Source: Gemmatimonadota bacterium (lineage in GTDB: Bacteria; Latescibacterota; UBA2968). From it: DNA of 33,988 nucleotides. Position 1 is the stretch's first letter. Each line of letters begins with the position of its first letter. The translations under genes and the position numbers were made by a program. The notes beneath the pieces were generated by a model. It was not told the origin of the DNA, searched no databases, and saw nothing but the letters and a program-made list of their open reading frames with translations. Shown here piece by piece: positions 3,233 to 17,166 of this stretch. The stretch covers positions 1 to 33,988 of the forward strand of contig JAPOXY010000092.1 in assembly GCA_026706845.1 (NCBI GenBank), in the 5' to 3' direction.

Positions 3233-4123
3233 TCAAAATATATCCAAAGCTGCTGCTTCAATTTCTTTTCGTAATGCTTTCTCTTCTTCCTCGTCGAGCG
3301 GACGTGTTGGCTTGACGGGATCGCCGCACTCGATTCCCTGCCAGCGCAATACGGCGCGTACGCTGCCGTGTCCACTGTATTTTTGACAAATCCGAATCAG
3401 TTCATTCACGTCTGCTTGCAATGTGCGTGCCGTGTCCAAATCGCGCTTGTTCACCGCTTCGTAAATGCCCACAAAATGCGCGGGCATCACATTGTAAAAT
3501 GTGCCGATTCCCCCCTGGGCACCTACCGCAATGCCCGATAGGGCCACTTCGTCATGTCCGTTAAAAATATGCGGCTTATGCGGTCCATTGAGTATGCGTT
3601 CCATTAAGAACAGGTTGAAATTTGTGAATTTAATGCCCACCACGCCTTCGAGTGCGAGCATCTGGTTGATTTGTTCAAACGAATACTCCTGATGCGTGAC
3701 CACGGGGATGTAATACACAAAGACCGGCAAGTTTGCCGCTGAACTCAGTGCGCTGTAATACGCCAATATGTCATCAAAACGATATCCCTGGACATAAGGC
3801 GGCAAACTCGAAATGCCATCGGCTCCTGCATCTACGGCGTGTTTGGCGAGTTCAACCGCGTCGCGTTCAGAGGGGGTGCCAACGTGTACTACCACTCGTC
3901 CATGTCCTTTTGATGCTTTGACGGCAATCTCTGTGGCCAACTTGCGCTCGGCCATTGTCATCAAATAACCTTCGCCCGTGTTGCCTGCCACGTACACGCC
4001 GTGTGATCCCCGTTCGTAAATACGCGCTATGAGTTTTTCATAGGCCGAGACGCTGAATGCACCTGTCCCATCCCTGGGGCTGACCAGTGCGGGATACATG
4101 CCCTTAAAACCGTCGAGTATCAC
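3233..4123 (-). CDS. Dihydrodipicolinate synthase / N-acetylneuraminate lyase family aldolase
   Basis: The 296-residue TIM-barrel protein belongs to the DHDPS/NAL superfamily of class I aldolases that act through a Schiff base with a keto acid, usually pyruvate. The Schiff-base lysine is Lys165 in VVGIKFTNFN, the catalytic tyrosine is Tyr137 in VYYIP, and the keto-acid carboxylate loop is GNTGEG at 47-52. The DapA-type residues after the tyrosine are absent, so a lysine-biosynthesis role is unlikely and an aldolase or lyase for sugar acids is more plausible. It is the last gene of the corrinoid-type operon; its ATG overlaps the stop of the ADP-ribosylglycohydrolase gene by four bases. Confidence 0.87.
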   Translation of the reverse strand: MILDGFKGMYPALVSPRDGTGAFSVSAYEKLIARIYERGSHGVYVAGNTGEGYLMTMAERKLATEIAVKASKGHGRVVVHVGTPSERDAVELAKHAVDAGADGISSLPPYVQGYRFDDILAYYSALSSAANLPVFVYYIPVVTHQEYSFEQINQMLALEGVVGIKFTNFNLFLMERILNGPHKPHIFNGHDEVALSGIAVGAQGGIGTFYNVMPAHFVGIYEAVNKRDLDTARTLQADVNELIRICQKYSGHGSVRAVLRWQGIECGDPVKPTRPLDEEEEKALRKEIEAAALDIF

Positions 4124-5127
4124 AGGGCGCCTCCGGTCTTTTCGTAAAGCTCGCGGGATAGTGATTCGATTTCTGTGCGTTCAACCAGTGTCTCTACGAG
4201 ATGTTGCGGCAAACCCGCTGTTCCGTGATACAAACCGCTCAGGGTACCGGCAATGGCTGCAAATGTATCTACATCTCCACCCGTGAGCAGCGCGCGCTCA
4301 ACAGTGGGGATAAATTCTCCTTCTGAGCGCAAGAACGCCTCTAAAGCCACGACAATTGTGGCCTGGGCTTCGCTCGGGATGGCATTTTCTCGCGCAGCTT
4401 CGGGCATTTTTACCATGGTTGCCCACGCATCTTCTTCGTTCATTGTCAGCAATGTCCCCACCTGTGCGATCAACTCGCCTGTAGATTCGCAAATCGGTCT
4501 GGCCGACCACTCGGCTACGTCCAGCACCTCATTTCCGTCCAGTGGGCGATGTGTTACCAGATGCCCCACCACATGGGCCATTGCGACTGCAGGCGCAACT
4601 GCGCGTGGGTCCTGGTGTGTCACATGGCTCGCTGCAATTGCATCGTCCAGGATATTTTCACCGGTTGCCCAGTGCCACAAGCCCACTGGCGCGATTTTCA
4701 TGACCGCTCCGTTGGATGGGTGGTCTTTCGATGCGGCTTCGGACCACGCCAGACCCTGATCGAGGCGTTCCAGGGTTTCCCGAAAAGCCCGGCCATACAT
4801 TTGCAGGAGTCCCTCGCGCCACATCGCCAAAAAACGATTGCTCAGGTCTTCGGGATCGACCTTTTCACACGCTATAATTGACTCAACGAGGACGAGGGTT
4901 TGCTGGGTATCGTCTGTATATTCTCCTGCTGGGCGGGTTACCACGCCTTCCCGATTGACCCGCCCTCGATAGTGGTCTGTCAATCCCTCTACCGCTTTGA
5001 TCCGATCCCGGTCCCATCCCTCGCAAAAACAGCCCAGAGAATCGCCTATCGCACCACCCAGTAGCGCGCCTACAAACATATCTTCGACCTCGATATCTTC
5101 TATTTCGTCGTCCCAATAATCAGCCAT
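4120..5127 (-). CDS. ADP-ribosylglycohydrolase family protein
   Basis: This 335-residue protein shows the DraG/ARH signature of two-metal hydrolases that remove ADP-ribose from proteins or other acceptors. The first metal site is YTDDTQQTL (Thr71, Asp72, Asp73) after GALLGGAIGDSLG, and the second is GGDVDTFAAIAG (Asp285, Asp287, Thr288). All key residues are present and the length is normal. A GAGG motif precedes the ATG at 5127. It overlaps the downstream aldolase gene by four bases and follows the homocysteine methyltransferase by 44 bases. Some family members are used in nucleoside or sugar catabolism rather than protein de-ADP-ribosylation, which would fit this metabolic operon. Confidence 0.9.
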   Translation of the reverse strand: MADYWDDEIEDIEVEDMFVGALLGGAIGDSLGCFCEGWDRDRIKAVEGLTDHYRGRVNREGVVTRPAGEYTDDTQQTLVLVESIIACEKVDPEDLSNRFLAMWREGLLQMYGRAFRETLERLDQGLAWSEAASKDHPSNGAVMKIAPVGLWHWATGENILDDAIAASHVTHQDPRAVAPAVAMAHVVGHLVTHRPLDGNEVLDVAEWSARPICESTGELIAQVGTLLTMNEEDAWATMVKMPEAARENAIPSEAQATIVVALEAFLRSEGEFIPTVERALLTGGDVDTFAAIAGTLSGLYHGTAGLPQHLVETLVERTEIESLSRELYEKTGGAL

Positions 5128-5171: not shown

Positions 5172-6170
5172 CTACCGCGTATCTACGATATTGCGAAATG
5201 CCCGAATGTGTTCGGGCGTGGTTCCGCAACATCCGCCTATCAAGAATCCACCGGCGTCCAACAAGTCCTCGACGTGTTGGGCCATGTCTTCTGGTCCTTG
5301 CGAATACGACGCCTGTTTGGTGACTTTGTCCAGGGTGGGTAAGCCCGCATTGGGATAGGCCATCAAGCGCTTGTTTTCAATGCCGCGATCCACAAGCGCT
5401 TTTTGCATCTGCACTGTGCCCTCAATTGCATAGGGCATGCCCGTGTGGTCTGTATTGCGCGTTTCAGCGCCGCAGTTCAGGCCCAGGAGTTGCACGTCGC
5501 CGAGCAGATTATCGCCATCTGAAAATTCGCCACTTGCCAAAATGTCCAGCACATCGCCGGGCGAAAAGCCCCAGTCCGTGCGGTAAATCAATTCACCCGT
5601 TTTGCGATCCTTTGTGAATTTATACGTCATATTCACGGCGATGGGTAAGCCCGTCTGCCGTGCAATATCAACGGCGATTGCAGCTTCTTTGGCGGAAAAC
5701 TGCGTTTCTATGACAAAAAAATCGGCGCCGCCTTTGACCATGGCAGAGATCACGCGCTCGTGGGCCGATCGCACATCGACATTGGGGATGCCAAAAACCG
5801 TATCGCCGGCATCGGCTTCGATAGCACCGGGGGAGGGACCGATGGAGCCACCCACATAAACATCCTTCCCGCTTTCTTCAACGGCTTGCCGCGCGTGTTG
5901 GACAGCTAATTCTGTCAAGTGCTCGGCATCATCTTCATCGGCATCGGCCATCTCGAGATGCAGGGGGGATACCACAAATGTGTTTGTGCCAATGGCGTTT
6001 GCACCCGCATCGATATACGCGCGATGCACTGCTACAACCTCTTTGGGGTGCGATAGATTGGCGATGGAACTGTTTGCCAGGTTTACCCCGTGTGCAAATA
6101 ATTGAGATCCAAATCCGCCGTCGTACACCATAGGTTGATCGTCTGCGAGGCGTTCTGCAAAAGACTTCAT
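5172..6170 (-). CDS. Homocysteine S-methyltransferase family protein
   Basis: The 332-residue protein is a stand-alone zinc-dependent Hcy-methyltransferase barrel like the N-terminal module of MetH, BHMT or MmuM. The three zinc cysteines are visible: Cys233 in LGLNCGAETRN and Cys314-Cys315 in GGCCGTTPEHIRAF. The start MKSFAERLADDQPMVYDGGFGSQL contains the typical DGGFGSQL opening. The stop of the upstream ASKHA gene overlaps by four bases. With the separate corrinoid protein and reactivase encoded alongside, the likely role is moving a methyl group between homocysteine and the corrinoid protein, as a split version of MetH; direct use of another methyl donor is the main alternative. Confidence 0.87.
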   Translation of the reverse strand: MKSFAERLADDQPMVYDGGFGSQLFAHGVNLANSSIANLSHPKEVVAVHRAYIDAGANAIGTNTFVVSPLHLEMADADEDDAEHLTELAVQHARQAVEESGKDVYVGGSIGPSPGAIEADAGDTVFGIPNVDVRSAHERVISAMVKGGADFFVIETQFSAKEAAIAVDIARQTGLPIAVNMTYKFTKDRKTGELIYRTDWGFSPGDVLDILASGEFSDGDNLLGDVQLLGLNCGAETRNTDHTGMPYAIEGTVQMQKALVDRGIENKRLMAYPNAGLPTLDKVTKQASYSQGPEDMAQHVEDLLDAGGFLIGGCCGTTPEHIRAFRNIVDTR

Positions 6171-8095
6171 ACCGTCATCCTCTTAAATTGACACCCTTCG
6201 ACAAATACGTCAAAAAAGTCTGGCTTTGTCTCCAGTTCCACATGCTCAATCCGCTTCACAAGGCGTTCTAAGCTCTCGCGTCGTTTCCGCGAGAGCAATA
6301 CTTCTCTCGCGCCCAATATCGCGGCATTTCCCACCTTTTCGATGCGTTCTTGTGGCACGGGTGCGAGAAAACCAATATCAATCGCATTTTGCACATTGAC
6401 GTAATTGGCAAATCCGCCAGATAGATAAAGTCGATGGATCTGGTCGGGGGCAATGCCAAATTCGCGCATGACAAGTAACTGCCCACAGTAATTTGCGGCC
6501 TTGGCCTGAGCCAGATTGCTCGCGTCTTCGCGCGATAGCGCAATGCTGTGTTCGGGCACTACAATCATTTCATATTGCTTGCGGTCGGCAAATACGCCCT
6601 TTTCCGTCATCATATCATGCCGCCGAAGTTCGGCCAATAAATCGATCAGTCCAGAGCCGCACAACCCCTGGGGCGTGCCATTACCTATTACGCGATAATT
6701 GAACTGACCACTTTCCCACGCCATCGATTCAATCGCCCCATCTTGTCCGGGCATGCCACAGGCGATACCGCCGCCTTCAAATGCGGGTCCCGCCGGACAA
6801 GAAGCTGCCACCAACCTGTCTCGGTTGCCCACTACGACTTCGGTATTGGTGCCCACATCGACGAGCATGAATATCTCGTCTTGAGCGCCCATTTCCACGG
6901 CCAGCATGTCCGCTGCGACATCGCCGCCCACATGGCTTGCAATAAGGGGCATGCCATATACCCGCGCTTTGGGATTTGTCCGAATGCCCAACCGCCTGCT
7001 GCTTTCATAAAGGGCGGTTGTTTTTCGCTCTCCGGCCAGATATTCGTGTTCTATTTGGGATTTATAGGGCTTTTGTCCAATGCTCTGCACATCGAGCCTG
7101 AAAAACATATCTCTCATGGTGGCATTGCCAGCGACGACAATTTCGTAAATTTCTTGTCGCTCAAAACCCAATTTTTCACATAGCACGAGAATTTCGTGGT
7201 TGATCGCATTTACCAGTGCTTTCCACAACTCATTTGGATATTCGCCATCATAGGAAATGCGATACATGATATCGCTGCCGCCAAAGCGCTGGGGATTTTC
7301 ATAAGATGCAATCGCAATACTTTCGCCAGATTCCAGATCTACGAGATCCATCACAATTGTCGTGGTGCCCACATCAATTGCCAGTCCGTAGATGTGTCCC
7401 CGAAACCGGTCGATGTCTTCTCCGTCGTAGAATACCCGGTCACCTTTACGCGTTACCACGGGATTGAGATCAATTGCTTTTTCCTGGCTCAAGGTCAAAA
7501 TTTGAGGCGCGCGGCGCAGGGGGACAAATTCGACTTCTGCATCTAAATCTACGACTTCAGCCTGACAGGCCAATCGGTAATTGTCTTTTAAGAAGGCTTC
7601 AGCTTCGGTTTTGGGGCATAGAGCTTCTTCGCCTTTTGCAATTTCTACCACGCATTCATGGCAGATACCCGACCGGAAACACGATGTTGGAACCCGAACA
7701 GATAGATCGTCGGCATAATCAAATATCGTTTTTCGTCCTTCGAGTTGTTGCACCTTGCCCATGTGTGTAATTGTGCCCGTTCCCTTTTTTCGGCGACGCT
7801 TTTTTTGTTTTTTGAGTGTGGTCTTCATCTCACGATAGGCATCTGGCTCTGTTTCCCAGGCCGTGCGATAGTCGAGGTTATCGTTGCTGGCACATTGAAA
7901 AAGCGCCCGGTTGGGCGCTGGTTTTCGCTGGAATTTACAGCCAAATTTGGCGGTGCACTCGTTGTCCTTGTTTTTGTAGGGACAGCGCATTTGCGCCTGT
8001 TCGTCGGCATGCTGGACAATATCTGAAAAAATTTCAGACATGCGGTCCAGCCGCTTTTGATAGGCTTCTCGATCTATTTTTTCACGCTCACTCAT
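6167..8095 (-). CDS. Corrinoid-activating ASKHA-domain protein with 2Fe-2S ferredoxin domain (RACo-like, DUF4445)
   Basis: The 642-residue protein matches the RACo-type reductive activators that return inactive Co(II) corrinoid proteins to Co(I) using ATP. A plant-type 2Fe-2S domain has Cys139, Cys145, Cys148 and Cys176. The ASKHA ATPase part starts near residue 235 (YGLAIDVGTTT), with a second phosphate loop FMLVDVGTNTE and the motif LCGSGLIDLLAEL. Unusually, residues 36-68 hold a further cysteine cluster (Cys38, 47, 53, 68), and residues 95-104 form a strongly basic linker before the ferredoxin. It lies directly after the corrinoid protein gene, whose stop it overlaps, and before the homocysteine methyltransferase. 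Confidence 0.88.
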   Translation of the reverse strand: MSEREKIDREAYQKRLDRMSEIFSDIVQHADEQAQMRCPYKNKDNECTAKFGCKFQRKPAPNRALFQCASNDNLDYRTAWETEPDAYREMKTTLKKQKKRRRKKGTGTITHMGKVQQLEGRKTIFDYADDLSVRVPTSCFRSGICHECVVEIAKGEEALCPKTEAEAFLKDNYRLACQAEVVDLDAEVEFVPLRRAPQILTLSQEKAIDLNPVVTRKGDRVFYDGEDIDRFRGHIYGLAIDVGTTTIVMDLVDLESGESIAIASYENPQRFGGSDIMYRISYDGEYPNELWKALVNAINHEILVLCEKLGFERQEIYEIVVAGNATMRDMFFRLDVQSIGQKPYKSQIEHEYLAGERKTTALYESSRRLGIRTNPKARVYGMPLIASHVGGDVAADMLAVEMGAQDEIFMLVDVGTNTEVVVGNRDRLVAASCPAGPAFEGGGIACGMPGQDGAIESMAWESGQFNYRVIGNGTPQGLCGSGLIDLLAELRRHDMMTEKGVFADRKQYEMIVVPEHSIALSREDASNLAQAKAANYCGQLLVMREFGIAPDQIHRLYLSGGFANYVNVQNAIDIGFLAPVPQERIEKVGNAAILGAREVLLSRKRRESLERLVKRIEHVELETKPDFFDVFVEGCQFKRMTV

Positions 8096-8849
8096 TCTCC
8101 TCCTCCCACTCCTTCAACAATTGTACAGCCAGTTCCACGCAGTCCAGGGCGTTTTCACCGTATCCATCCGCCCCCATGTCGTCGGCAAATTCCTGTGTCA
8201 CAGGGGCACCGCCCACCATGATTTTCACATCGTCTCGCAAGTCTTCGTCGATAAATGCTTCAATTGTCTTGCCCATATTCGGCATTGTCGTGGTCAACAG
8301 TGCGGACATGCCGAGCAATTTGGCTTCGTGTTCTTCGACGGCATCCATAAATTCGTCTTCGGATGTATCCACGCCGAGGTCGTGGACGACAAACCCGGCA
8401 CCGCGCAACATCATGATACACAAATTTTTGCCAATATCGTGCAAATCGCCTTTTACCGTGCCCATAATGACCGTGCCTACCGGCTCGACGCCCGAGGCTG
8501 ACAAGATGGGTTCAATATGCGCCATTCCCGCTTTCATTGCCCGGGCGCACGCGAGGACTTCGGGTACAAAAATAAAATTTTCTCGAAATTTAATTCCCAC
8601 AATGCCCATGCCAGCGATCAACCCATCGTCCATAATTTCCAGCGCACCTACGCCTGCATCCAGGGCTTCGCGCGTCAATTGATCGACATCGTGATGCGCG
8701 CCATCGATCAATGCGGCGGCAATTGCCTGCATCTCGGGACTCGCGTTTGCGAACAGATCGATATTGCGTTGTATCTCATCGGGGCGTTCTAAAAATTCTT
8801 CTATTTCCTCTTTGATAAACTCATTTTGAACATCGGATAATTCAGCCAT
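8088..8849 (-). CDS. Corrinoid (B12-binding) methyltransferase protein, MtbC/MtaC-like
   Basis: The 253-residue protein has the two-domain plan of small corrinoid proteins: an N-terminal helical cap and a C-terminal Rossmann cobalamin domain. The base-off motif DxHxxG is complete as GDLHDIG (Asp135, His137, Gly140), with GMSALLTTTMPNM and MVGGAPVTQEFA as the later cobalamin contacts. I chose the ATG at 8849 (MAELSDVQNEF), because a GGAGG lies 12 bases upstream; the ATG at 8870 adds only seven residues and would place this Shine-Dalgarno sequence inside the gene. It overlaps the end of the UroD-type gene by eight bases. It carries the methyl group between the partner methyltransferases. Confidence 0.9.
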   Translation of the reverse strand: MAELSDVQNEFIKEEIEEFLERPDEIQRNIDLFANASPEMQAIAAALIDGAHHDVDQLTREALDAGVGALEIMDDGLIAGMGIVGIKFRENFIFVPEVLACARAMKAGMAHIEPILSASGVEPVGTVIMGTVKGDLHDIGKNLCIMMLRGAGFVVHDLGVDTSEDEFMDAVEEHEAKLLGMSALLTTTMPNMGKTIEAFIDEDLRDDVKIMVGGAPVTQEFADDMGADGYGENALDCVELAVQLLKEWEEENE

Positions 8850-9894
8850 TAACGCTCTCTGCCTCCGCATGCCAATCCACGACTGCTTTTGGGATTTCTT
8901 TCAGATTTTCGATTGATGTTTGCAAGGGAATCGCACATTCAGGCCCCACCAGATGTACTCCTGCACTCAGGTTTTTATACACTTCTTTTTTTACGGTTTC
9001 CGGCTCTTTTGAAAATAGTGTTTCCGGGTTGTTGATATTGCCGACCAGCGCGATTCGTTCCTTTACAATATCAATTGACTCATCTGGATCGTTTTTGGAG
9101 TCGTAGTGAAATGCTGCCATGCCCGTTTGCGCGATGTATTCCATCCGATCAACGGTGCGCCCGCATATATGCAAAATTAGCGGAATGGGTATGCGGTCGG
9201 CAAATTCGATGTGCAATTCGCGCAAATACCGGTCGTAATAATCGCCGCTGACCAGATCCCCCGTTGCGTGATCGGGCAGGGTCAGGGCGTCGGCGCCCGC
9301 TTCAATTTGCGCTACGCCAAATGCGACGGTTACTTCTTTTAATTTGTCCAGAATTTGCCGCGTGTGATCCGGGTCGTCCAATGATAGGAGCAAAAAATCC
9401 TCTACGCCAAAGCAGTGATACGCCAGAGACCAGGGTCCCATTGTTTTACCGATAATCGCCACTTCATCGCCGTATTCTTTTCGCAATATGCCAATCGCGT
9501 CCAGCACGCATTTTGTATCGGGATGGGTCAATAAGTTCGATGGAATTTCAATATCATCTACCTTGTGCCAGATCGGTTCTCTCATTTGCACTGTGGGCCA
9601 GTTGTCTTTTTGTTCCCACTGGATTTTGCACCCGAGTGCGGATGATTCCTGGATGATTGTAAATACGGGCATGATCGTGTCAAAACCCAGTTCGGTATAG
9701 CTCGTTGCCGCCAGCCGTGCCATGAGTTCTGGTTCGCGATTTGCCTGCGGAAATGGCGCATCGACGAGATCCATCAATTCTACGGTTGCAACCGAAGTCG
9801 GGTTACAGGTCGGTGTGCGATCCACAGGCGCCCGATTGAGTGCGGCCAATACGCGGTCGCGCGGTTTCATTGGTTTTGTTGTCTGGTCGTTCAT
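8842..9894 (-). CDS. Uroporphyrinogen decarboxylase-fold zinc methyltransferase (MtaA/MtbA-like)
   Basis: This 350-residue protein belongs to the UroD-fold methyltransferases that pair with corrinoid proteins. The zinc ligands expected for MtaA/MtbA enzymes are all visible: His242 and Cys244 in ILHICGRT, and Cys320 in GPECAIPLQTS. True haem-pathway UroD lacks this zinc site. The N-terminus RDRVLAALNRAPVDRTP is typical of the family. The gene lies directly upstream of the corrinoid protein gene. It could be the substrate-specific demethylase loading the corrinoid or the enzyme unloading it; no CoM metabolism genes are in the window, so the first role seems more likely. Confidence 0.87.
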   Translation of the reverse strand: MNDQTTKPMKPRDRVLAALNRAPVDRTPTCNPTSVATVELMDLVDAPFPQANREPELMARLAATSYTELGFDTIMPVFTIIQESSALGCKIQWEQKDNWPTVQMREPIWHKVDDIEIPSNLLTHPDTKCVLDAIGILRKEYGDEVAIIGKTMGPWSLAYHCFGVEDFLLLSLDDPDHTRQILDKLKEVTVAFGVAQIEAGADALTLPDHATGDLVSGDYYDRYLRELHIEFADRIPIPLILHICGRTVDRMEYIAQTGMAAFHYDSKNDPDESIDIVKERIALVGNINNPETLFSKEPETVKKEVYKNLSAGVHLVGPECAIPLQTSIENLKEIPKAVVDWHAEAESVNG

Positions 9895-9909
9895 ATGTGA
9901 CTCCAGTTC

Positions 9910-10539
9910 CTAATTTTGCGCGCTCGGGGCTGCGAGCACGCCCCGGCTGGCAGCCTGTTCCAATTCTCGCATGACGGATCGCACATTGGGGGCGCGTACG
10001 AGTAGGACACCTATGAGGGGATCGTGTGTCATGCCGCAATCAAAGCGCACCTGGTCTTCTTCCACTTGTTCCAATTCGCCCAGTTTTGCAAGCCCTCCGG
10101 CCACCAATCGAATGCGCCGGTCTGCGCCTTTTTCATCGCTATCAGCCGTGATTTTGTATGCGCCATTAGATTGGGGCGTTGCGGAAATGTGCAATCCCGA
10201 TTTTTTGTCCAGGATGGTCAACGGACGCATAGATACGTCGTCATCCATGCCGAGTTTGCACGCTTCCAAGAATAGTCGCTTCACAGAGAGCAGATGTGTG
10301 GCGCCACACGGAAAGCGCAATAATCCCTCGCCTGCGTCTTCCATGCCTCCCAGGACGCGCATTGCATGGTTTACGGAATCTATACGCGCTTGCGCCCCGT
10401 CTATCTGGCTATATGTGTGAACGCGAAAAGTCGTGCCCTGTGCGTTTTCTTGCCGGTATAGCCCAATTGTGATGTCGTGAAAATGGACATCCATTGGCAC
10501 CAATTCTATTCGCCGACCTATGTCTAATGTCTGTCCCAT
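9910..10539 (-). CDS. Unknown protein with two internal CGxTH repeats, in corrinoid operon
   Basis: I do not recognise this 209-residue protein. It consists of two related halves: residues 38-96 and 128-186 align without gaps over 59 positions with about 18 identities. Each half ends in the motif RFxCGxTH (Cys78-His82 and Cys168-His172). There is no signal peptide or membrane segment, so it should be cytoplasmic. A GGAAGG motif precedes the ATG at 10539. It sits between the HAD phosphatase and the UroD-type methyltransferase with gaps of about 15 bases, so it is probably co-transcribed with the corrinoid system. The paired Cys/His motifs could bind metal, cobalamin or a thiol, but this is speculation. 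Confidence 0.8.
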   Translation of the reverse strand: MGQTLDIGRRIELVPMDVHFHDITIGLYRQENAQGTTFRVHTYSQIDGAQARIDSVNHAMRVLGGMEDAGEGLLRFPCGATHLLSVKRLFLEACKLGMDDDVSMRPLTILDKKSGLHISATPQSNGAYKITADSDEKGADRRIRLVAGGLAKLGELEQVEEDQVRFDCGMTHDPLIGVLLVRAPNVRSVMRELEQAASRGVLAAPSAQN

Positions 10540-10553
10540 GAGAATCCTTCCTC

Positions 10554-11417
10554 TTACCTATCAAGCACATATCGACGCACGGCTTTGGCAAATCCATCGT
10601 TTTCAATGTGGTCGGTTTGTAGAATATTTTCCCCGGTCACTGCGCGATGGGTTGCTGCATCTGCGTTGTGCATCAATACACCGGTTCCGGCTGCGCGCAA
10701 CATGGGCAGATCATTATTGCCATCGCCCACAGCCATCACCTCATCGAGGCTGCCGCCAATGTGGTTGGCTATCGCTGTGAGTGCTGCGCCTTTGTTCACA
10801 TCCGGGTGCATGATTTCGATGCGACCCGCCACGGCCCAGGCCATGTAAATTTGATCGCCGAATATATTTTTTAATTCATCAACTGTTTCATCGGCATGTC
10901 CGGGTTCGGGCAAGAGCATTATTTTGGGGGGCGAGGCCAATTCTTTTGTGCGTATTCGCTGCGCGAGATCGGCATCGACTTCATAGACCATATTGGTCAT
11001 TGTGGCTACCGCGCGGCTCATTTTTGTCATGCGGTCGGTGATATAAACTTCGCAGGGGCCTTCGCTATTCATGTCACAGCGACAATATACAAAATTCATG
11101 AGCCGGTCATCGGCATATTGGATCAGCGATGAGAATATGTCATCGGGCAGACGCTGTTCATGCATGAGTTGGCGTGTGCCATTCGTCCTGGGTGCGAAAA
11201 CCATTGCGCCATTATAGCATCCGGCATAGAGGGCGTCGGCCACGCTGGGATTGCGTACAAACGGAATTTGATTGCGTTCAAAATTGCGTCCACTCATAGA
11301 CGCTACAGCTACGCCGCGATCCAATAATTCGCAAATCGCCGCCATCGAAGCATCCGATGGGGTGTTGTTGTGATTTAAGATCGTTCCATCCAGGTCAAAT
11401 GCCACAAGTCTGATCAC
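10554..11417 (-). CDS. HAD superfamily hydrolase, Cof-type sugar phosphatase
   Basis: The protein has the HAD nucleophile motif LVAFDLDGTILNHNNTPSD, motif II in VASMSGRN, and motif IV GDGNNDLPML, with the large C2 cap of Cof-type phosphatases between them. Family members dephosphorylate sugar phosphates or cofactors. I chose the GTG at 11417 (VIRLVAFDLDGT; 287 residues) because AGGAGAT lies six bases upstream; the longer TTG start at 11435 would read through this ribosome site. The gene begins 10 bases after the Gfo/Idh/MocA stop. The substrate is unknown. Confidence 0.86.
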   Translation of the reverse strand: MIRLVAFDLDGTILNHNNTPSDASMAAICELLDRGVAVASMSGRNFERNQIPFVRNPSVADALYAGCYNGAMVFAPRTNGTRQLMHEQRLPDDIFSSLIQYADDRLMNFVYCRCDMNSEGPCEVYITDRMTKMSRAVATMTNMVYEVDADLAQRIRTKELASPPKIMLLPEPGHADETVDELKNIFGDQIYMAWAVAGRIEIMHPDVNKGAALTAIANHIGGSLDEVMAVGDGNNDLPMLRAAGTGVLMHNADAATHRAVTGENILQTDHIENDGFAKAVRRYVLDR

Positions 11418-11427
11418 TGCATCTCCT

Positions 11428-12465
11428 CTAATCAACCAGGGGCAATCGAACGGTTCCGCCGCGCTCTGCCGAGCGGTGAACCGCTTCGGTAAATTCCATA
11501 TATCTCATGCCTTCGTAAAAGCTGGTATCGCCCTGAGGCCCACCCTTGATGGCATTGATGAAATCGGCTTCGACCGTCCATTCGGCGGCTTCATCTTCGG
11601 GGATGGGTATTTCTTGCAGTCGTCGATCCCCCGTTTTTGCACCGCGAATTTGCGTTCCCATGTCGTAGGTCAATGTGCCGTCACTACCATAAGCTTCAAT
11701 GACAGAGCTTCCGCCAAATTGCGCGACGCCCGAAAATAGAAATGCCGCACGCGCACCATTTTCCATTTTGCCTATGATATGCGCCATATCAGGTGTTTCA
11801 ACCGGTCCAGTGTCAGACCCATCGGGTAGTGGTCGCTCTCTGGTAAAAATGTCAGTTTCAGCCGTTATGGTTGACATATAGCCAAATACGCGCTCGACGC
11901 GCTCGACGGTAATACCCATTCCCAGGATATTTAAGCCCGAATATCGGCGCATCTGTCGCCAGTGTAATGGCTCTTCGATATCCCAATAGCGCCCGCCCAG
12001 GTCGCGAACATATACGTGGAAAATATCGCCCAAATACCCTTCATCTATGAGCCGTCTCAAGAAACGCCCGCCTTTCCACGGGGGGGCTGGACAAATTTGG
12101 GTTACGAGATTGGATTCTCGACTTCTGGCATACATCAATCGGGCTTCGCGCAAGTTCATCGCCATGCGCGCCTGTACAAAGGTGTGTTTGCCAGCGTCTA
12201 AGGATGCGAGGACGAATTCACAGTGTTTGTACGGCCAGGTGCCGATCATTACTGCGTCGATATCGTCCCGATGCAACAGGGCCTGTGGGTCTGTCATAGC
12301 TTCGGCTGATAGGCCCTGTTCGGCTATTACCTTTTCGCCACTTTCTATGCTGCGGTTGCATATTGCCACGACTTCGGCGTCGTCAATTTTTGCCAGTCCC
12401 GGAAAATGTCGGCTCCGGAAAATACCACCCGCACCAATGATGCCAATGCGAATTTTATCTGCCAT
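11428..12465 (-). CDS. Gfo/Idh/MocA family oxidoreductase (paralogue 1)
   Basis: The 345-residue protein starts with a Rossmann NAD(P) motif RIGIIGAGGIFRSRHF and has the two-domain layout of glucose-fructose oxidoreductase/inositol dehydrogenase proteins. The conserved EKP-type motif that normally carries the catalytic lysine is replaced by FVQARMAMN, with alanine where lysine is expected. A GAGG motif precedes the ATG at 12465. It is the first gene of the nine-gene corrinoid-type operon. It is clearly related over its whole length to the protein at 18868-19917. Its substrate is probably a sugar or cyclitol derivative, and with the missing lysine it may not be a standard dehydrogenase. Confidence 0.87.
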   Translation of the reverse strand: MADKIRIGIIGAGGIFRSRHFPGLAKIDDAEVVAICNRSIESGEKVIAEQGLSAEAMTDPQALLHRDDIDAVMIGTWPYKHCEFVLASLDAGKHTFVQARMAMNLREARLMYARSRESNLVTQICPAPPWKGGRFLRRLIDEGYLGDIFHVYVRDLGGRYWDIEEPLHWRQMRRYSGLNILGMGITVERVERVFGYMSTITAETDIFTRERPLPDGSDTGPVETPDMAHIIGKMENGARAAFLFSGVAQFGGSSVIEAYGSDGTLTYDMGTQIRGAKTGDRRLQEIPIPEDEAAEWTVEADFINAIKGGPQGDTSFYEGMRYMEFTEAVHRSAERGGTVRLPLVD

Positions 12466-12603: not shown

Positions 12604-13437
12604 CTATATATCTTTCATAGGAACAAGGTTGACGCCACTCCCCCTGTGGATGAAGATCGAACTCTCGCCATATTCGCCATGGCGAAAGATGGGCTCGAAT
12701 CCATAGGATCCGACTTCGGCCTGGAGTCGTCTCCAATCCCGATAACACCGCTTTGGAATGTAGGTCCTGCCATTCACAACAATTGTGTCCTCGCACGCTT
12801 CGATCCGCTCCCGTTCGGACGGGTATTTTTCGAGCGGTTCGTAGTAGTAATCTGTTGACGGATCGTAAAGACAGTCGTTGTCATAGATGTCATAGGTTTG
12901 GCCAGTTGATCGGTCGATGACTTTCATGTCCGGAGTATGTCGGGAGGGCTCGTAAACCGAGGAACTCACGAGATAGTAGCCCTCAGGCTTCAGTCGCGCC
13001 TTGACGCTTTCGAAGACAGATCTGCGCTCTTCTACAAACACGATGTGATTGATGCAGTAGCTGTCGACGATCAAATCGAACCGGTTTCCATTGTGCGGGA
13101 TTTGGGTTACGTCCATCACCTCATACTGAATGGACAAACCTCGAAGGGTAGCTATTTCCCGGGCCGTGTGAATCGCTTCAGGTATCAAGTCGTAACCGGT
13201 GACCTGGTAACCCCGCTCGGCCAGAAATAACGCGCCTGGACCCACACCGGTTCCGAGTTCGAGAGCCGTTGGATTCGGTGTCTCAAACCGGAGCCTCGGC
13301 AAGGCCGCTTCGAGAAAGTTGCGAGATGAAAAGTCGTGGAAGTCCGTGCCTCCATACGTCCTTTTTGCCCAATTCTCCAGACTCATCCGCGTCATGATTT
13401 CGTATCGCCGAATATTTTCACGGAAGTAGTATCTCAT
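12604..13437 (-). CDS. Class I SAM-dependent methyltransferase
   Basis: The 277-residue protein has SAM motif I as ALELGTGVGPGALFLAERG, the strand-2 acidic residue in VTGYDLIPEAI, and the motif NRFDLIVDSYCINHI. This is a generic small-molecule-type methyltransferase core. The ATG at 13437 directly follows the TAA of the propeller gene, suggesting translational coupling; an internal ATG (MTRMSLENWAKRTYGG) is an alternative start without a clear ribosome site. It is the last gene of a four-gene set with the propeller and two serine hydrolases. The substrate is unknown. Confidence 0.82.
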   Translation of the reverse strand: MRYYFRENIRRYEIMTRMSLENWAKRTYGGTDFHDFSSRNFLEAALPRLRFETPNPTALELGTGVGPGALFLAERGYQVTGYDLIPEAIHTAREIATLRGLSIQYEVMDVTQIPHNGNRFDLIVDSYCINHIVFVEERRSVFESVKARLKPEGYYLVSSSVYEPSRHTPDMKVIDRSTGQTYDIYDNDCLYDPSTDYYYEPLEKYPSERERIEACEDTIVVNGRTYIPKRCYRDWRRLQAEVGSYGFEPIFRHGEYGESSIFIHRGSGVNLVPMKDI

Positions 13438-14748
13438 TTAATCATTCCTATTTTCGCTTTTCGCCAAACTGGCACAAACCAGTTCTTTATCATTTCGGGC
13501 GAACACATGTTTATAGGCAAACGCAGGATGTGACCATGTGACACCACCTCTGCGGTTCAACTGGTCGCGCGTCGGTTCGATCAGTTTCGCGCGGCTGATG
13601 ATATTCAGCCCGTCCGGCGAAAGCGTTGTAATCAGGAGTTCGCCGCGCTCATTAAACATCCAGACCTTATCGCCATTTTTGATAAAATGAATGTTGCTCC
13701 AGCGCGCTTTCGGAACCGCGGTGAGGTCTTCCCAAATCCGATCGCCGTTGCGGGCATCGAGGCAGCGGAGTTCCCCATAGCTATCCACACCGTAAATGTA
13801 ATCGCCGAGTCGGATCGGGGTTGACATCGTGGAATGGAGCGCGTCTGTGTTCCGTTCATTTCTTCCCTTACGGTGCCAGCCGAATTGCATCATCGGCTTA
13901 TCTGGATTCAGTTTCAGCAGCAGTGAACCTTCAAAGAAATCGGTGATAAACAACTCATTTTGATAAAAAACGGGACTTGCGATCCCGATCTCCATGCGAG
14001 TCGGTGGAAACGGATGGCGCCAATGCGTGCTGCCTGTCTGCGGGTTGAGCCCGGCGATATTTCTACCTGTCCAACAGACGAGCACCCGCTCGCCCCCCTG
14101 TGTAATCACAATTGGAGTTGAGTAAGATGCGTTGTCTTCAAGGGCTTTCCATTTTTCGGCTCCGGTTTCGCGATCGAAAGCGACGATGCACGCTCCGGGC
14201 GTGCCGCCGATTTGTACGATGAGGTGAGAACCCTCGACAATCGGCGCGCTCGCAATCCCCCAGGTTGGCATCTTAATATTGTATTCGGCGTTGAGGTCTT
14301 TTTTCCACTTCAACGTGCCGGTTGCGGCATCAAAGCAGTGGAGATGCCCCATCGCTCCCAGGGCGTAAGCGAGTCCGTCATGAATGATAACATTGGCTCG
14401 AGGTCCGGCGGTATAGTCAATTCGGTATTCACACTCGTAGGTGAAGGACCAAATCAATTCCCCTGTTTTCCAGTCGAAACAGTGAACCCGTTCGACCTGT
14501 TTCGGTTTCGCGAGACGGTCAGTAACGTAAACGCGCCCGTCAGCGACGCTCGGGCCGCTATAGCCGCTGCCGATTGGCACTCGCCAACGGATCGGGATCT
14601 CCGGTCCGTCAAATGTCTCCAATATCCCGGTTTCGCTCCAAACACCGTCCCGGTGCGGTCCCCGCCACTGCGGCCATTCATCGGCCAAAACCGAAGAGAT
14701 GGGGACAAGCACAGCGAGCAGCATTAGTTTCAATAGGATTCGGTTCAT
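13438..14748 (-). CDS. Secreted PQQ-type beta-propeller repeat protein
   Basis: This 436-residue protein starts with a signal peptide (MNRILLKLMLLAVLVPISSVLA) followed by EWPQWRGPHRDGVW, the WRGP opening typical of planctomycete-type PQQ-like propellers. Repeated blades contain motifs such as VYVTDRL, HCFDAATGTLKWKKDL and VAFDRETGAEKW. It lacks the long catalytic domain of PQQ alcohol dehydrogenases, so it is more likely a BamB-like binding or scaffold protein in the periplasm or cell surface. It starts two bases after the class C-like hydrolase stop and abuts the methyltransferase gene. Confidence 0.85.
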   Translation of the reverse strand: MNRILLKLMLLAVLVPISSVLADEWPQWRGPHRDGVWSETGILETFDGPEIPIRWRVPIGSGYSGPSVADGRVYVTDRLAKPKQVERVHCFDWKTGELIWSFTYECEYRIDYTAGPRANVIIHDGLAYALGAMGHLHCFDAATGTLKWKKDLNAEYNIKMPTWGIASAPIVEGSHLIVQIGGTPGACIVAFDRETGAEKWKALEDNASYSTPIVITQGGERVLVCWTGRNIAGLNPQTGSTHWRHPFPPTRMEIGIASPVFYQNELFITDFFEGSLLLKLNPDKPMMQFGWHRKGRNERNTDALHSTMSTPIRLGDYIYGVDSYGELRCLDARNGDRIWEDLTAVPKARWSNIHFIKNGDKVWMFNERGELLITTLSPDGLNIISRAKLIEPTRDQLNRRGGVTWSHPAFAYKHVFARNDKELVCASLAKSENRND

Positions 14749-14750
14749 GG

Positions 14751-16103
14751 TTAATCATGTCCTTTTTTAAAACACAAATTTTTGACCCGGTTTCCCGTCA
14801 GCCTGAACCCTGTAATTTGTCCCGTATCGTCTCGCGTAAAATGAACTTCTGGGAAAAACCACGCATCCCCGACGAAATGATCGTCGTTACAGGTTAGCGA
14901 TATGTCGTCATGCCGTCTGTGTTGCGCCACAAGCCGGTCCCCTCGCACACAAATGGTATAGGTGGTATCGAGTTCTTCGGTGTAATAATCGCCTTCGAAT
15001 TCTGACAACTGTTCTGGTGATAGGGGTTCGATCTCGTTGCTTTCAGAGGGTTGCTTATCCGGCTCGGGTGCCTCGGGCGCAAGGACATCAGCGAGATAGA
15101 TATCAGCGATCTTTTTCGCCAGATTAAGTGGGGTGAAGGTGTCCAGATTGCACAATATGACAACGCCAAATTTCTGAGCTGGAAAACGTATGAGATGGCT
15201 GCGAAATCCCCGCCATGATCCGCCGTGTCCGGCCGTTTTCCGTGCTCTGTACTCGCCGATGTCCAATCCGAAGGCGTAATTGATCTGTTTCCCCTTATTG
15301 AGAACTCCCTGCTGGTGCATCTGCTCAACCACTGCCTTTCCGCCTATCCGTGCATCGTCAAAGTTCAGAATCCACTTTGCCAGATCTTCTACTGTTGAAT
15401 AGAGCGAACTCGAACCGAGGGCGGTTAAATTGTTCACAGCATTCTTGAACCCGTTATCTTTCGCGGACGAATAGGAATACGCCCGGTTCTTCACGATCAT
15501 CTCGTGGTCATCGTGAAAGTGGGTGTTGGTCATGGCGAGGGGCTTAAAGATGTTGGCGTCCGTCCATTCGCGAAATGATTCTCCCGTTATTGTTTCAACG
15601 ATTTCTGCCAGCAGATTATACCCCGTATTTGAGTATAAAAACGCTGTTCCAGGCTCGAAGTTGAGGTCTTTCTGACGCCTTACCATTTTCAAAATATGTT
15701 TAAACGAGATCACGTCATCCATCTGTCCGCCCGCGATGACGAGTGCCTGTACCCAATCCCGCAGTCCACTCGTGTGATGCACCAGATGTCGAATCGTTAT
15801 TTTTATTCCAAAATCCGGGACATCGGGCAAGTGCATCCGAATATCGTCATCCAGCGAGAGTTTCCCTTCATGCAACAACGTGGCGATGGCAAAGCCCGCA
15901 AATTGCTTGGAGACCGAAGCAATGTCGAAGATGGTTGTCGGTGCAATCGGGATGCCGTATTCCAGATTCGCCATACCGTATCCGCGTTTGTAGATAATTT
16001 CGTCGTCTCTGATAACCGACAGGGCCGCACCAGGGGAGTCTGGCTTGTCCCATTCCGCGAACACCTGATCGACTTTTGCCTCAAGTGACTCGTGATTTGT
16101 CAT
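14751..16103 (-). CDS. Serine hydrolase of the class C beta-lactamase / AmpH-like family
   Basis: The 450-residue protein has the catalytic SxxK motif SVSK at Ser63-Lys66 in FDIASVSKQFAGFA, a tyrosine motif in YSNTGYNLLAEIV and the third motif as HGGSWRGF instead of KTG, as in many esterase- or D-aminopeptidase-like members. A C-terminal lipocalin-like extension (SEFEGDYYTEELDTTYT onwards) is common in these proteins. No signal peptide is visible, so the enzyme appears cytoplasmic unless the true start differs. Likely activity is hydrolysis of esters, D-amino-acid peptides or peptidoglycan fragments; beta-lactam resistance is unlikely to be its main role. It overlaps the upstream hydrolase gene by four bases. 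Confidence 0.86.
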   Translation of the reverse strand: MTNHESLEAKVDQVFAEWDKPDSPGAALSVIRDDEIIYKRGYGMANLEYGIPIAPTTIFDIASVSKQFAGFAIATLLHEGKLSLDDDIRMHLPDVPDFGIKITIRHLVHHTSGLRDWVQALVIAGGQMDDVISFKHILKMVRRQKDLNFEPGTAFLYSNTGYNLLAEIVETITGESFREWTDANIFKPLAMTNTHFHDDHEMIVKNRAYSYSSAKDNGFKNAVNNLTALGSSSLYSTVEDLAKWILNFDDARIGGKAVVEQMHQQGVLNKGKQINYAFGLDIGEYRARKTAGHGGSWRGFRSHLIRFPAQKFGVVILCNLDTFTPLNLAKKIADIYLADVLAPEAPEPDKQPSESNEIEPLSPEQLSEFEGDYYTEELDTTYTICVRGDRLVAQHRRHDDISLTCNDDHFVGDAWFFPEVHFTRDDTGQITGFRLTGNRVKNLCFKKGHD

Positions 16104-16909
16104 TGGTCACCTTCTCCCGAGATCATGCCCGTCACTTGCATCGCGGCCCTGGCAATCTCGGAGAGCGCGCATTCGCTGGTGACGCGATCGCCGAGTTCCC
16201 GGCTGTAGAGCGCGATTACCATCGTCCCCGCAGGGGATTCGACGAAGCCGACGTCATTGATTACCCCCCGATTCGAGCCGGTTTTGGAACCCCAGCGATA
16301 GGTTTTGGAGGTCGGCACATATCGTCCGATGCGACGACCGTTCTGTTGCAGGGTCAAGGTGGTGAGCATGGCCTGACAGGATGCGGGGGATGCGGCCTGG
16401 TCGTCGAGAATCGTCTTGACGACGGTAGTGTAGTCATTCGGTGTGGCCCAATTTTCCTGTTCCCCTTCAATCGCGAGGCGCCCGCGCATGGGCCGTCCGA
16501 GAGAGGAGGCGGTCATACCGAGTTCTCGCATTGTCGCGTTGATGCGATCCATTCCGGCCACTTCAATCAATATGTTGGTGGCGGTGTTGTCGCTGATGGA
16601 CATCATCAAGTACAGAAGATCTCCAAACGACAGTTGCAGCCCGGTATGCATGTGTCGCAGTACACCACTGCCGGGGGATTTATCCACAGAGCGGACGATA
16701 TATGTGTCATCGAGCGCGAGTGTACCGCGATCAATAGCTCTGTAGATCTCGATCATGATCGGGATTTTAACTGTGCTGGCCGCCGGAAACTGATGATCAC
16801 CCCGTGAAGCCCAACGCTCTCCCTGAGGCGAAATCACACTGACGCCGATCGTACCGGGCGATTCGTAATCTTTAACCGTTTGTTCCAGCTTGCTCCAGTC
16901 TGTGGTCAT
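16100..16909 (-). CDS. Class A beta-lactamase-like serine hydrolase
   Basis: The 269-residue protein has the three penicillin-recognising motifs: STVK (Ser45-Lys48), SDN (106-108) and KTG (209-211). The omega-loop region (about residues 138-156) has no clear ExxLN motif, so the glutamate that speeds deacylation in true class A beta-lactamases appears absent or displaced. I chose the ATG at 16909 (MTTDWSKLEQTVKD), with AGGAACG upstream; the reading to 17014 adds 35 residues that do not look like a signal peptide. The protein is therefore predicted cytoplasmic. It is the first gene of the set that runs into the second serine hydrolase, the propeller and the methyltransferase. Confidence 0.84.
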   Translation of the reverse strand: MTTDWSKLEQTVKDYESPGTIGVSVISPQGERWASRGDHQFPAASTVKIPIMIEIYRAIDRGTLALDDTYIVRSVDKSPGSGVLRHMHTGLQLSFGDLLYLMMSISDNTATNILIEVAGMDRINATMRELGMTASSLGRPMRGRLAIEGEQENWATPNDYTTVVKTILDDQAASPASCQAMLTTLTLQQNGRRIGRYVPTSKTYRWGSKTGSNRGVINDVGFVESPAGTMVIALYSRELGDRVTSECALSEIARAAMQVTGMISGEGDQ

Positions 16910-16932
16910 GGTAACGTTCCTGAAACTCAGTC

Positions 16933-17166
16933 TCAGTTTGCCAGTGCGTCTTTGGCTTTGCAAGGCAGTTCGACAAAGATAAAATAAGATGCGGGATACA
17001 AGTAGTCTTCCCACGATTCGTCAATGACTCTCAAATATCCCTCTTGCGCTGCTTCTTCGTCGGGTAAAATCTGGTATATTTTCCGCTTCTCCAGATCGTC
17101 GCAGTCTCTATTCTCGATACACAGCGCGAATTGAGATTTTGATAGGTTCTCTTTCATTTTATGCAT
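16933..17166 (-). CDS. Small conserved hypothetical protein
   Basis: The 77-residue protein matches a small bacterial family with the pattern CxENxDCxDLExxKxYQxLPDEEAAxxGYLRVxDES-EDYLYPASYF. From memory, such proteins are often encoded beside toxin-antitoxin genes; a function is not established. The core here is intact. The start is ambiguous between the ATG at 17166, overlapping the end of the UPF0175 reading frame, and the ATG at 17157 two bases beyond that stop; no strong ribosome site is seen, so translation coupled to the broken upstream gene may be weak. Confidence 0.65.
   Translation of the reverse strand: MHKMKENLSKSQFALCIENRDCDDLEKRKIYQILPDEEAAQEGYLRVIDESWEDYLYPASYFIFVELPCKAKDALAN

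Follow-up and report, generated by a model that had tools for sequence, protein, structure and literature searches.

The window, by which we mean the whole stretch of 33,988 nucleotides analysed here, encodes a protein of two repeats whose family is undescribed in the libraries searched and whose gene occurs hand in hand with that of one methyl-transfer enzyme of the UroD superfamily. Judged from sequence, this occurrence suggests that the protein is probably a dedicated helper of the UroD rather than a metal carrier. More specifically, it may serve the UroD-type methyltransferase encoded just 3' of it as a dedicated accessory subunit, a reading to which we would give a probability of roughly 0.55.

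The two-repeat protein and its model

The open reading frame reported in an earlier note on this DNA is real, running on the minus strand from an ATG start to a TAG stop and preceded by a Shine-Dalgarno-like AGGAAGG (Table 1). The halves of the encoded protein are true repeats. Their gap-free pairing over 59 residues, to which the same note had drawn attention, is the best such window on its diagonal, with 18/59 residues identical (30.5%); the best ungapped pairing within the window protein is that of residues 38-82 with 128-172 (16/45 identical), and for this single sequence the half-half score is 69, whereas no shuffle out of 2000 scored above 51. When all homologues are used, hhalign pairs half one with half two at a probability of 97.2% (E 4.3e-11, score 62, 78 columns), the top score in 30 column-shuffled control runs being 16.2. 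The motif RFxCGxTH, described as common to both halves, holds for the window protein, but the family core is only F-x-C-x3-H: conservation does not extend to the T, and in the second motif the G is variable.

An alignment of 86 rows was prepared from 144 homologue matches, six of which (L009, L071, L122, L042, L063 and L064) were dropped for runs of X or a length below 190, and exact duplicates were removed. Positions conserved to at least 90% are concentrated at the C-terminus (19/36 in residues 173-208 versus 44/172 in residues 1-172), and D17, R52, R88, K113, Y128, R142, R182 and R187 are among many invariant polar residues spread over the two repeats.

The AlphaFold2 model, from 35 alignment rows, has a mean pLDDT of 89.4 and gives each half the same order of two strands, a helix, two short strands and a helix (beta-beta-alpha-beta-beta-alpha). 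The second helix of half two is modelled as extending to residue 203, and residues 201-209 fall below a pLDDT of 50 despite the conservation of the C-terminal region. The view that the protein belongs to no known family has held, as no credible match was found in Pfam, NCBIfam, PHROGs or PDB sequences, the best line of the PDB sequence search being an antibody chain (E 0.091). A Foldseek search of the model gave a best E of 0.096 and no convincing solved relative, and the best Z in VIA-align, 6.0, is below the noise level stated for that tool. Single repeats gave weak fold matches to the microcompartment proteins PduB (Z 6.0, rmsd 3.6, 82 aligned) and EtuB (Z 6.0, rmsd 4.6, 81 aligned), and to Sulfolobus Rpo11, of the Rpo11/Rpb11 fold (Z 3.7, rmsd 5.7, 70 aligned). 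These matches of a predicted structure lie under a meaningful level and we claim no relationship from them; equally, a missing fold match does not establish a new fold.

Distribution of the family

The two-repeat protein represents a real and widespread family, the scan of 84,980 species genomes having returned 119 confirmed loci, of which 80 are listed. All 80 listed records are metagenome-assembled genomes (MAGs) by title, and their hosts include Latescibacterota, Poribacteria, Acidobacteriota and Bryobacterales, Alphaproteobacteria and two 'Betaproteobacteria' MAGs, among others. Within 100 nearby genomes the gene was present in 44/47 from the class of the window, with E far below 1e-20, and absent from the other 53 (best E 0.049). 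It was found in 15/299 genomes of one acidobacterial class, in 16/22 genomes from the order to which a 'Rhodospirillaceae' MAG belongs and in 1/143 from the class containing a 'Betaproteobacteria' MAG, the one being that MAG itself. This patchy distribution suggests that the family has spread horizontally.

The operon and its neighbours

The genes on either side are as previously described, a HAD phosphatase gene 5' and the UroD gene 3'. The HAD gene ends 14 nt before the two-repeat gene and UroD begins 15 nt after it; 3' of UroD the genes for the corrinoid protein, the RACo/RamA activase and the homocysteine S-methyltransferase follow in that order and overlap. The HAD gene was considered as a core part of the system and rejected, being probably no such part since it is found in just 13/80 listed loci.

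Table 1. Features of the window discussed in the text.
Feature	Position	Strand	Remark
Two-repeat protein, 209 aa	9910..10539	-	Family undescribed in libraries searched
C78-G-A-T-H82, motif of repeat 1	10294..10308	-	Coordinates from residue numbers
C168-G-M-T-H172, motif of repeat 2	10024..10038	-	Coordinates from residue numbers
Residues 182-209 (RAxNVR..RE.E..RG.L.APS.Q), most conserved stretch	9913..9996	-	Last 9 residues of low pLDDT
UroD superfamily methyltransferase, MtaA/CmuA subfamily	8842..9894	-	H242/C244/C320 at zinc-ligand places
Corrinoid protein, B12-binding cap and B12-binding domain	8088..8870	-	Domain matches
RACo/RamA-type reductive activase with 2Fe-2S domain	6167..8095	-	Domain matches
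Homocysteine S-methyltransferase, BHMT/MetH N-terminal type	5172..6170	-	Domain matches
HAD-IIB phosphatase, 5' neighbour	10554..11435	-	In 13/80 related loci listed

The UroD of the window passes the cut-off of the MtaA/CmuA subfamily (257 versus 235 bits), and its H242, C244 and C320, conserved in 79/79, 78/79 and 79/79 aligned UroDs, are spaced like the residues which we take to be the zinc ligands of MtaA. The operon thus makes up a modular corrinoid methyl-transfer system, of the type represented by methanogen-like mlp clusters (PMC10418091) and marine Mtg systems (PMC12478193), in which UroD is the presumed demethylase and the acceptor would be homocysteine here and tetrahydrofolate in other genomes. 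That the module is the sole methionine synthase of the organism was rejected, as a full-length MetH (1653 bits) is encoded elsewhere in the genome; a stand-alone MeTr was not found in this genome, only the MetH domain.

Several further genes lie nearby. A GntR/FCD-type regulator gene is divergent and 5' of the two-repeat gene in 30/80 listed loci (e.g., L133, 7082-7819) and is likely to encode a sensor of the operon's substrate. An APH-fold kinase is encoded 5' of the gene in L123 (3118-4122) and 13 further loci; its weak likeness to methylthioribose kinase (57 bits, cut-off 275) may hint that the substrate is a methyl-sulfur compound. Upstream in the window are a PQQ-repeat protein and two beta-lactamase-fold proteins (13438-17014), and in a Poribacteria group (e.g., L093) PQQ-repeat and Beta-lactamase2 genes are likewise 5' of the two-repeat gene. 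Positions 12604-13437 encode a SAM methyltransferase weakly like the corrinoid-protein-associated CpaM (43.9 bits, cut-off 180). The operon of the window ends with genes for an ADP-ribosylglycohydrolase (4120-5127) and a DHDPS/N-acetylneuraminate-lyase-like protein (3233-4123), which were observed beside the module only in close relatives of the window.

Pairing with one UroD clade

Across 384 genomes the two-repeat gene and a UroD at least 73% identical to that of the window were either both present (74 genomes) or both absent (309), with one genome carrying the gene only and none the UroD only. The first subset of 63 genomes, all of them also among the 100 nearby genomes, contained 44 with both and 19 with neither; the acidobacterial class (299 genomes) contained 15 and 284; and the order of the 'Rhodospirillaceae' MAG (22 genomes) contained 15 with both, six with neither and the single gene-only genome (G429). 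In the latter the gene occupies minus-strand bases 84-728, at a contig edge, so its UroD would fall beyond the end of the contig. A UroD 74-83% identical to that of the window was also found in 18/18 chosen gene-bearing genomes, several of which overlap the 384-genome samples. UroDs of 43-46% identity occur in 4/63 genomes, which are without the two-repeat gene. Distant homologues beside UroDs of 41-46% identity were also sought, and no HMM match was obtained in the five such loci among seven scanned.

As for adjacency, UroD lies 3' of the gene and on the same strand in 79/80 listed loci, the remaining locus (L139, in genome G106) having the two about 14 kb apart on one contig of 75,870 bases. 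The gap between gene and UroD is below 100 nt in 103/110 loci of a redundant set, and in one genome (G021) the two are on different contigs. Over 47 shared loci the pairwise identities of the two proteins correlate (r 0.81), for which shared ancestry alone could suffice, the mean identity being 80% for UroD versus 57% for the two-repeat protein. The near-perfect way in which the gene accompanies and adjoins one UroD clade thus gives strong support to the note's view of the protein as a part dedicated to the methyl-transfer system.

Such co-occurrence would fit equally well with a separate enzyme or binding protein which acts just before or after UroD, preparing, delivering or removing its substrate or product without forming a complex, and the polar residues invariant over both repeats could line a ligand site. 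However, no enzyme family was matched in the libraries searched, and a conserved, flexible C-terminal tail would be more typical of docking to a partner; we regard this explanation as unlikely, though it is the strongest of the alternatives.

In the 63 loci with 8 kb of downstream sequence UroD was found in 62, the corrinoid protein in 53 and RACo in 53, and the acceptor-side genes were of BHMT type in 29, MeTr in 22 and MTHFR in 20. Six Poribacteria genomes have the gene adjoining UroD and the corrinoid gene (78-83% identical) elsewhere, and G106 carries a second, paralogous module of UroD (41%), corrinoid protein (72%), RACo (57%) and MeTr which is without the two-repeat gene (L225, G106:C57:12000-25000, 5578-10790). 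Together these cases link the gene with UroD rather than with general corrinoid handling. They bear on the suggestion that the protein is an accessory of corrinoid reactivation, a counterpart of DUF1638 in the modular methionine synthase of Phaeobacter and Ruegeria, for which there is the precedent of DUF1638, an extra protein of unexplained role encoded close to RamA-type modules (PMC5764234; PMC12478193). However, the two-repeat gene tracks UroD rather than RACo or the corrinoid gene, the second module of G106 has RACo and a corrinoid protein without it, and none of 35 family members matched the DUF1638 profile (PF07796) at E up to 10, which together make a reactivation accessory improbable.

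The cysteine and histidine residues

Each repeat contributes one C-x3-H motif, and C78, H82, C168 and H172 are all kept in 99/108 distinct sequences, 108 being the distinct rows of the tree (a count of 117 rows includes duplicates and was not used). All four are gone in eight sequences and one more is gapped there; partial loss was seen in none. That the four are kept or lost together argues for one joint site, which from the sequences is most likely a metal site common to both repeats and dispensable. The eight sequences form a single acidobacterial clade (SH-aLRT 100 in a quick tree), which implies one loss rather than many and limits the inference that can be drawn. This clade keeps the gene beside UroD and retains the invariant R52, R88, F90, R182 and R187. 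Loss of the four residues with retention of the gene beside UroD speaks against an essential role in metal delivery, and the clade is a ready natural control for metal hypotheses.

The earlier note had suggested, as examples, a metal or a substrate chaperone and had named non-conservation of these residues as evidence that would count against its reading; such non-conservation was found in one acidobacterial clade only, and the metal-chaperone proposal is weakened. A metal chaperone or zinc-insertion factor for UroD would agree with the paired motifs and with the H/C/C at the zinc-ligand places of UroD, but is very improbable given that a metallochaperone would be expected to keep its ligands throughout, that the Cys/His-free clade otherwise retains the protein along with its adjacent UroD, that four UroDs of this clade are in the 79-row alignment where H242 and C320 are invariant (the row with the change at C244 is unassigned), and that other MtaA-type UroDs are without such a partner.

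Proposed role of the two-repeat protein

As an accessory subunit of UroD, the two-repeat protein might work as follows. The two C-x3-H loops would meet and bind one stabilising metal ion, probably zinc, between the repeats, and the C-terminal helix and flexible tail would dock on UroD, where they may help it to bind or position the methyl donor. UroD would pass the methyl group to the corrinoid protein, which would hand it on, via the BHMT-type enzyme, to homocysteine; in other genomes it would go to tetrahydrofolate via MeTr and then MTHFR. RACo would re-reduce the corrinoid. The two proteins were also modelled as a fusion, the two-repeat protein being read through its TAG stop into the in-frame UroD (AlphaFold2, 53 rows: 23 fused, 15 of the two-repeat protein alone and 15 of UroD alone). 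This model had a pTM of 0.64 and a mean pLDDT of 78.9, values close to those expected of separate domains, and lent an interface no support, though its tether is short and its alignment shallow.

To our knowledge, no small accessory subunit of any UroD-family methyltransferase is known, and none is named in the papers compared. A bolder and decidedly tentative proposal is that a UroD-type corrinoid methyltransferase has in this family its second, obligate subunit, which directs UroD to a methyl donor handled by no MtaA, CmuA or Mlp enzyme, in a methyl-scavenging pathway common to sponge- and ocean-associated uncultured phyla. The strict pairing of gene and UroD offers a genetic handle on a methyl-donor pathway in bacteria seen here only as MAGs.

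Comparison with known systems

Literature searches found no paper on UroD and corrinoid proteins in Latescibacter, none on Versatilivorator, and none on demethylation by corrinoid methyltransferases of Poribacteria or on UroD methyltransferases of sponge symbionts. The closest systems, as far as the excerpts of the source papers describe them, are the MtaA/MtbA/CmuA (soluble coenzyme M methyltransferase) modules and the type 1 mlp clusters of Kountz and Balskus, which likewise place an MtaA/CmuA-type UroD, a corrinoid protein and a Ram-type activase in one operon. In the excerpted text type 1 mlp clusters comprise a corrinoid protein, a Ram-type activase and an MtaA-like protein in the same direction, and are defined by at least two MtaA-like proteins and by the exclusion of any THF methyltransferase within 20 kb (PMC10418091). 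The three codirectional genes are all present in the operon of the window. Unlike those clusters as excerpted, the window has one UroD (one among the 20 window proteins searched, and one place in the genome at E up to 1e-60) plus the extra two-repeat protein. Homocysteine or THF methyltransferases lie near two-repeat loci, with MeTr in 22/63 related loci but, in the window's own genome, none beyond the MetH domain. The same excerpts contain no mention of DUF, hypothetical or unknown-function proteins (PMC10418091).

A second point of comparison is MtgBCDE of marine roseobacters, described in the excerpted text as a modular methionine synthase and glycine betaine demethylase (PMC12478193). Common to both, on that description, are a corrinoid hub between a demethylase and homocysteine and THF methyltransferases, and RamA-type activation (PMC12478193); a corrinoid hub with a homocysteine methyltransferase is found in the window, and the BHMT type in 29/63 loci. 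The demethylase in the excerpts is MtgB, of the MttB family, where the window has a UroD-type enzyme, and the Mtg accessory is DUF1638 (PMC12478193), which is unrelated by HMM to the two-repeat protein. In contrast to the modular methionine synthase, the genome of the window also has a complete MetH. The system described here is a variant of the known modular corrinoid kind, and includes a protein family that none of the libraries searched describes.
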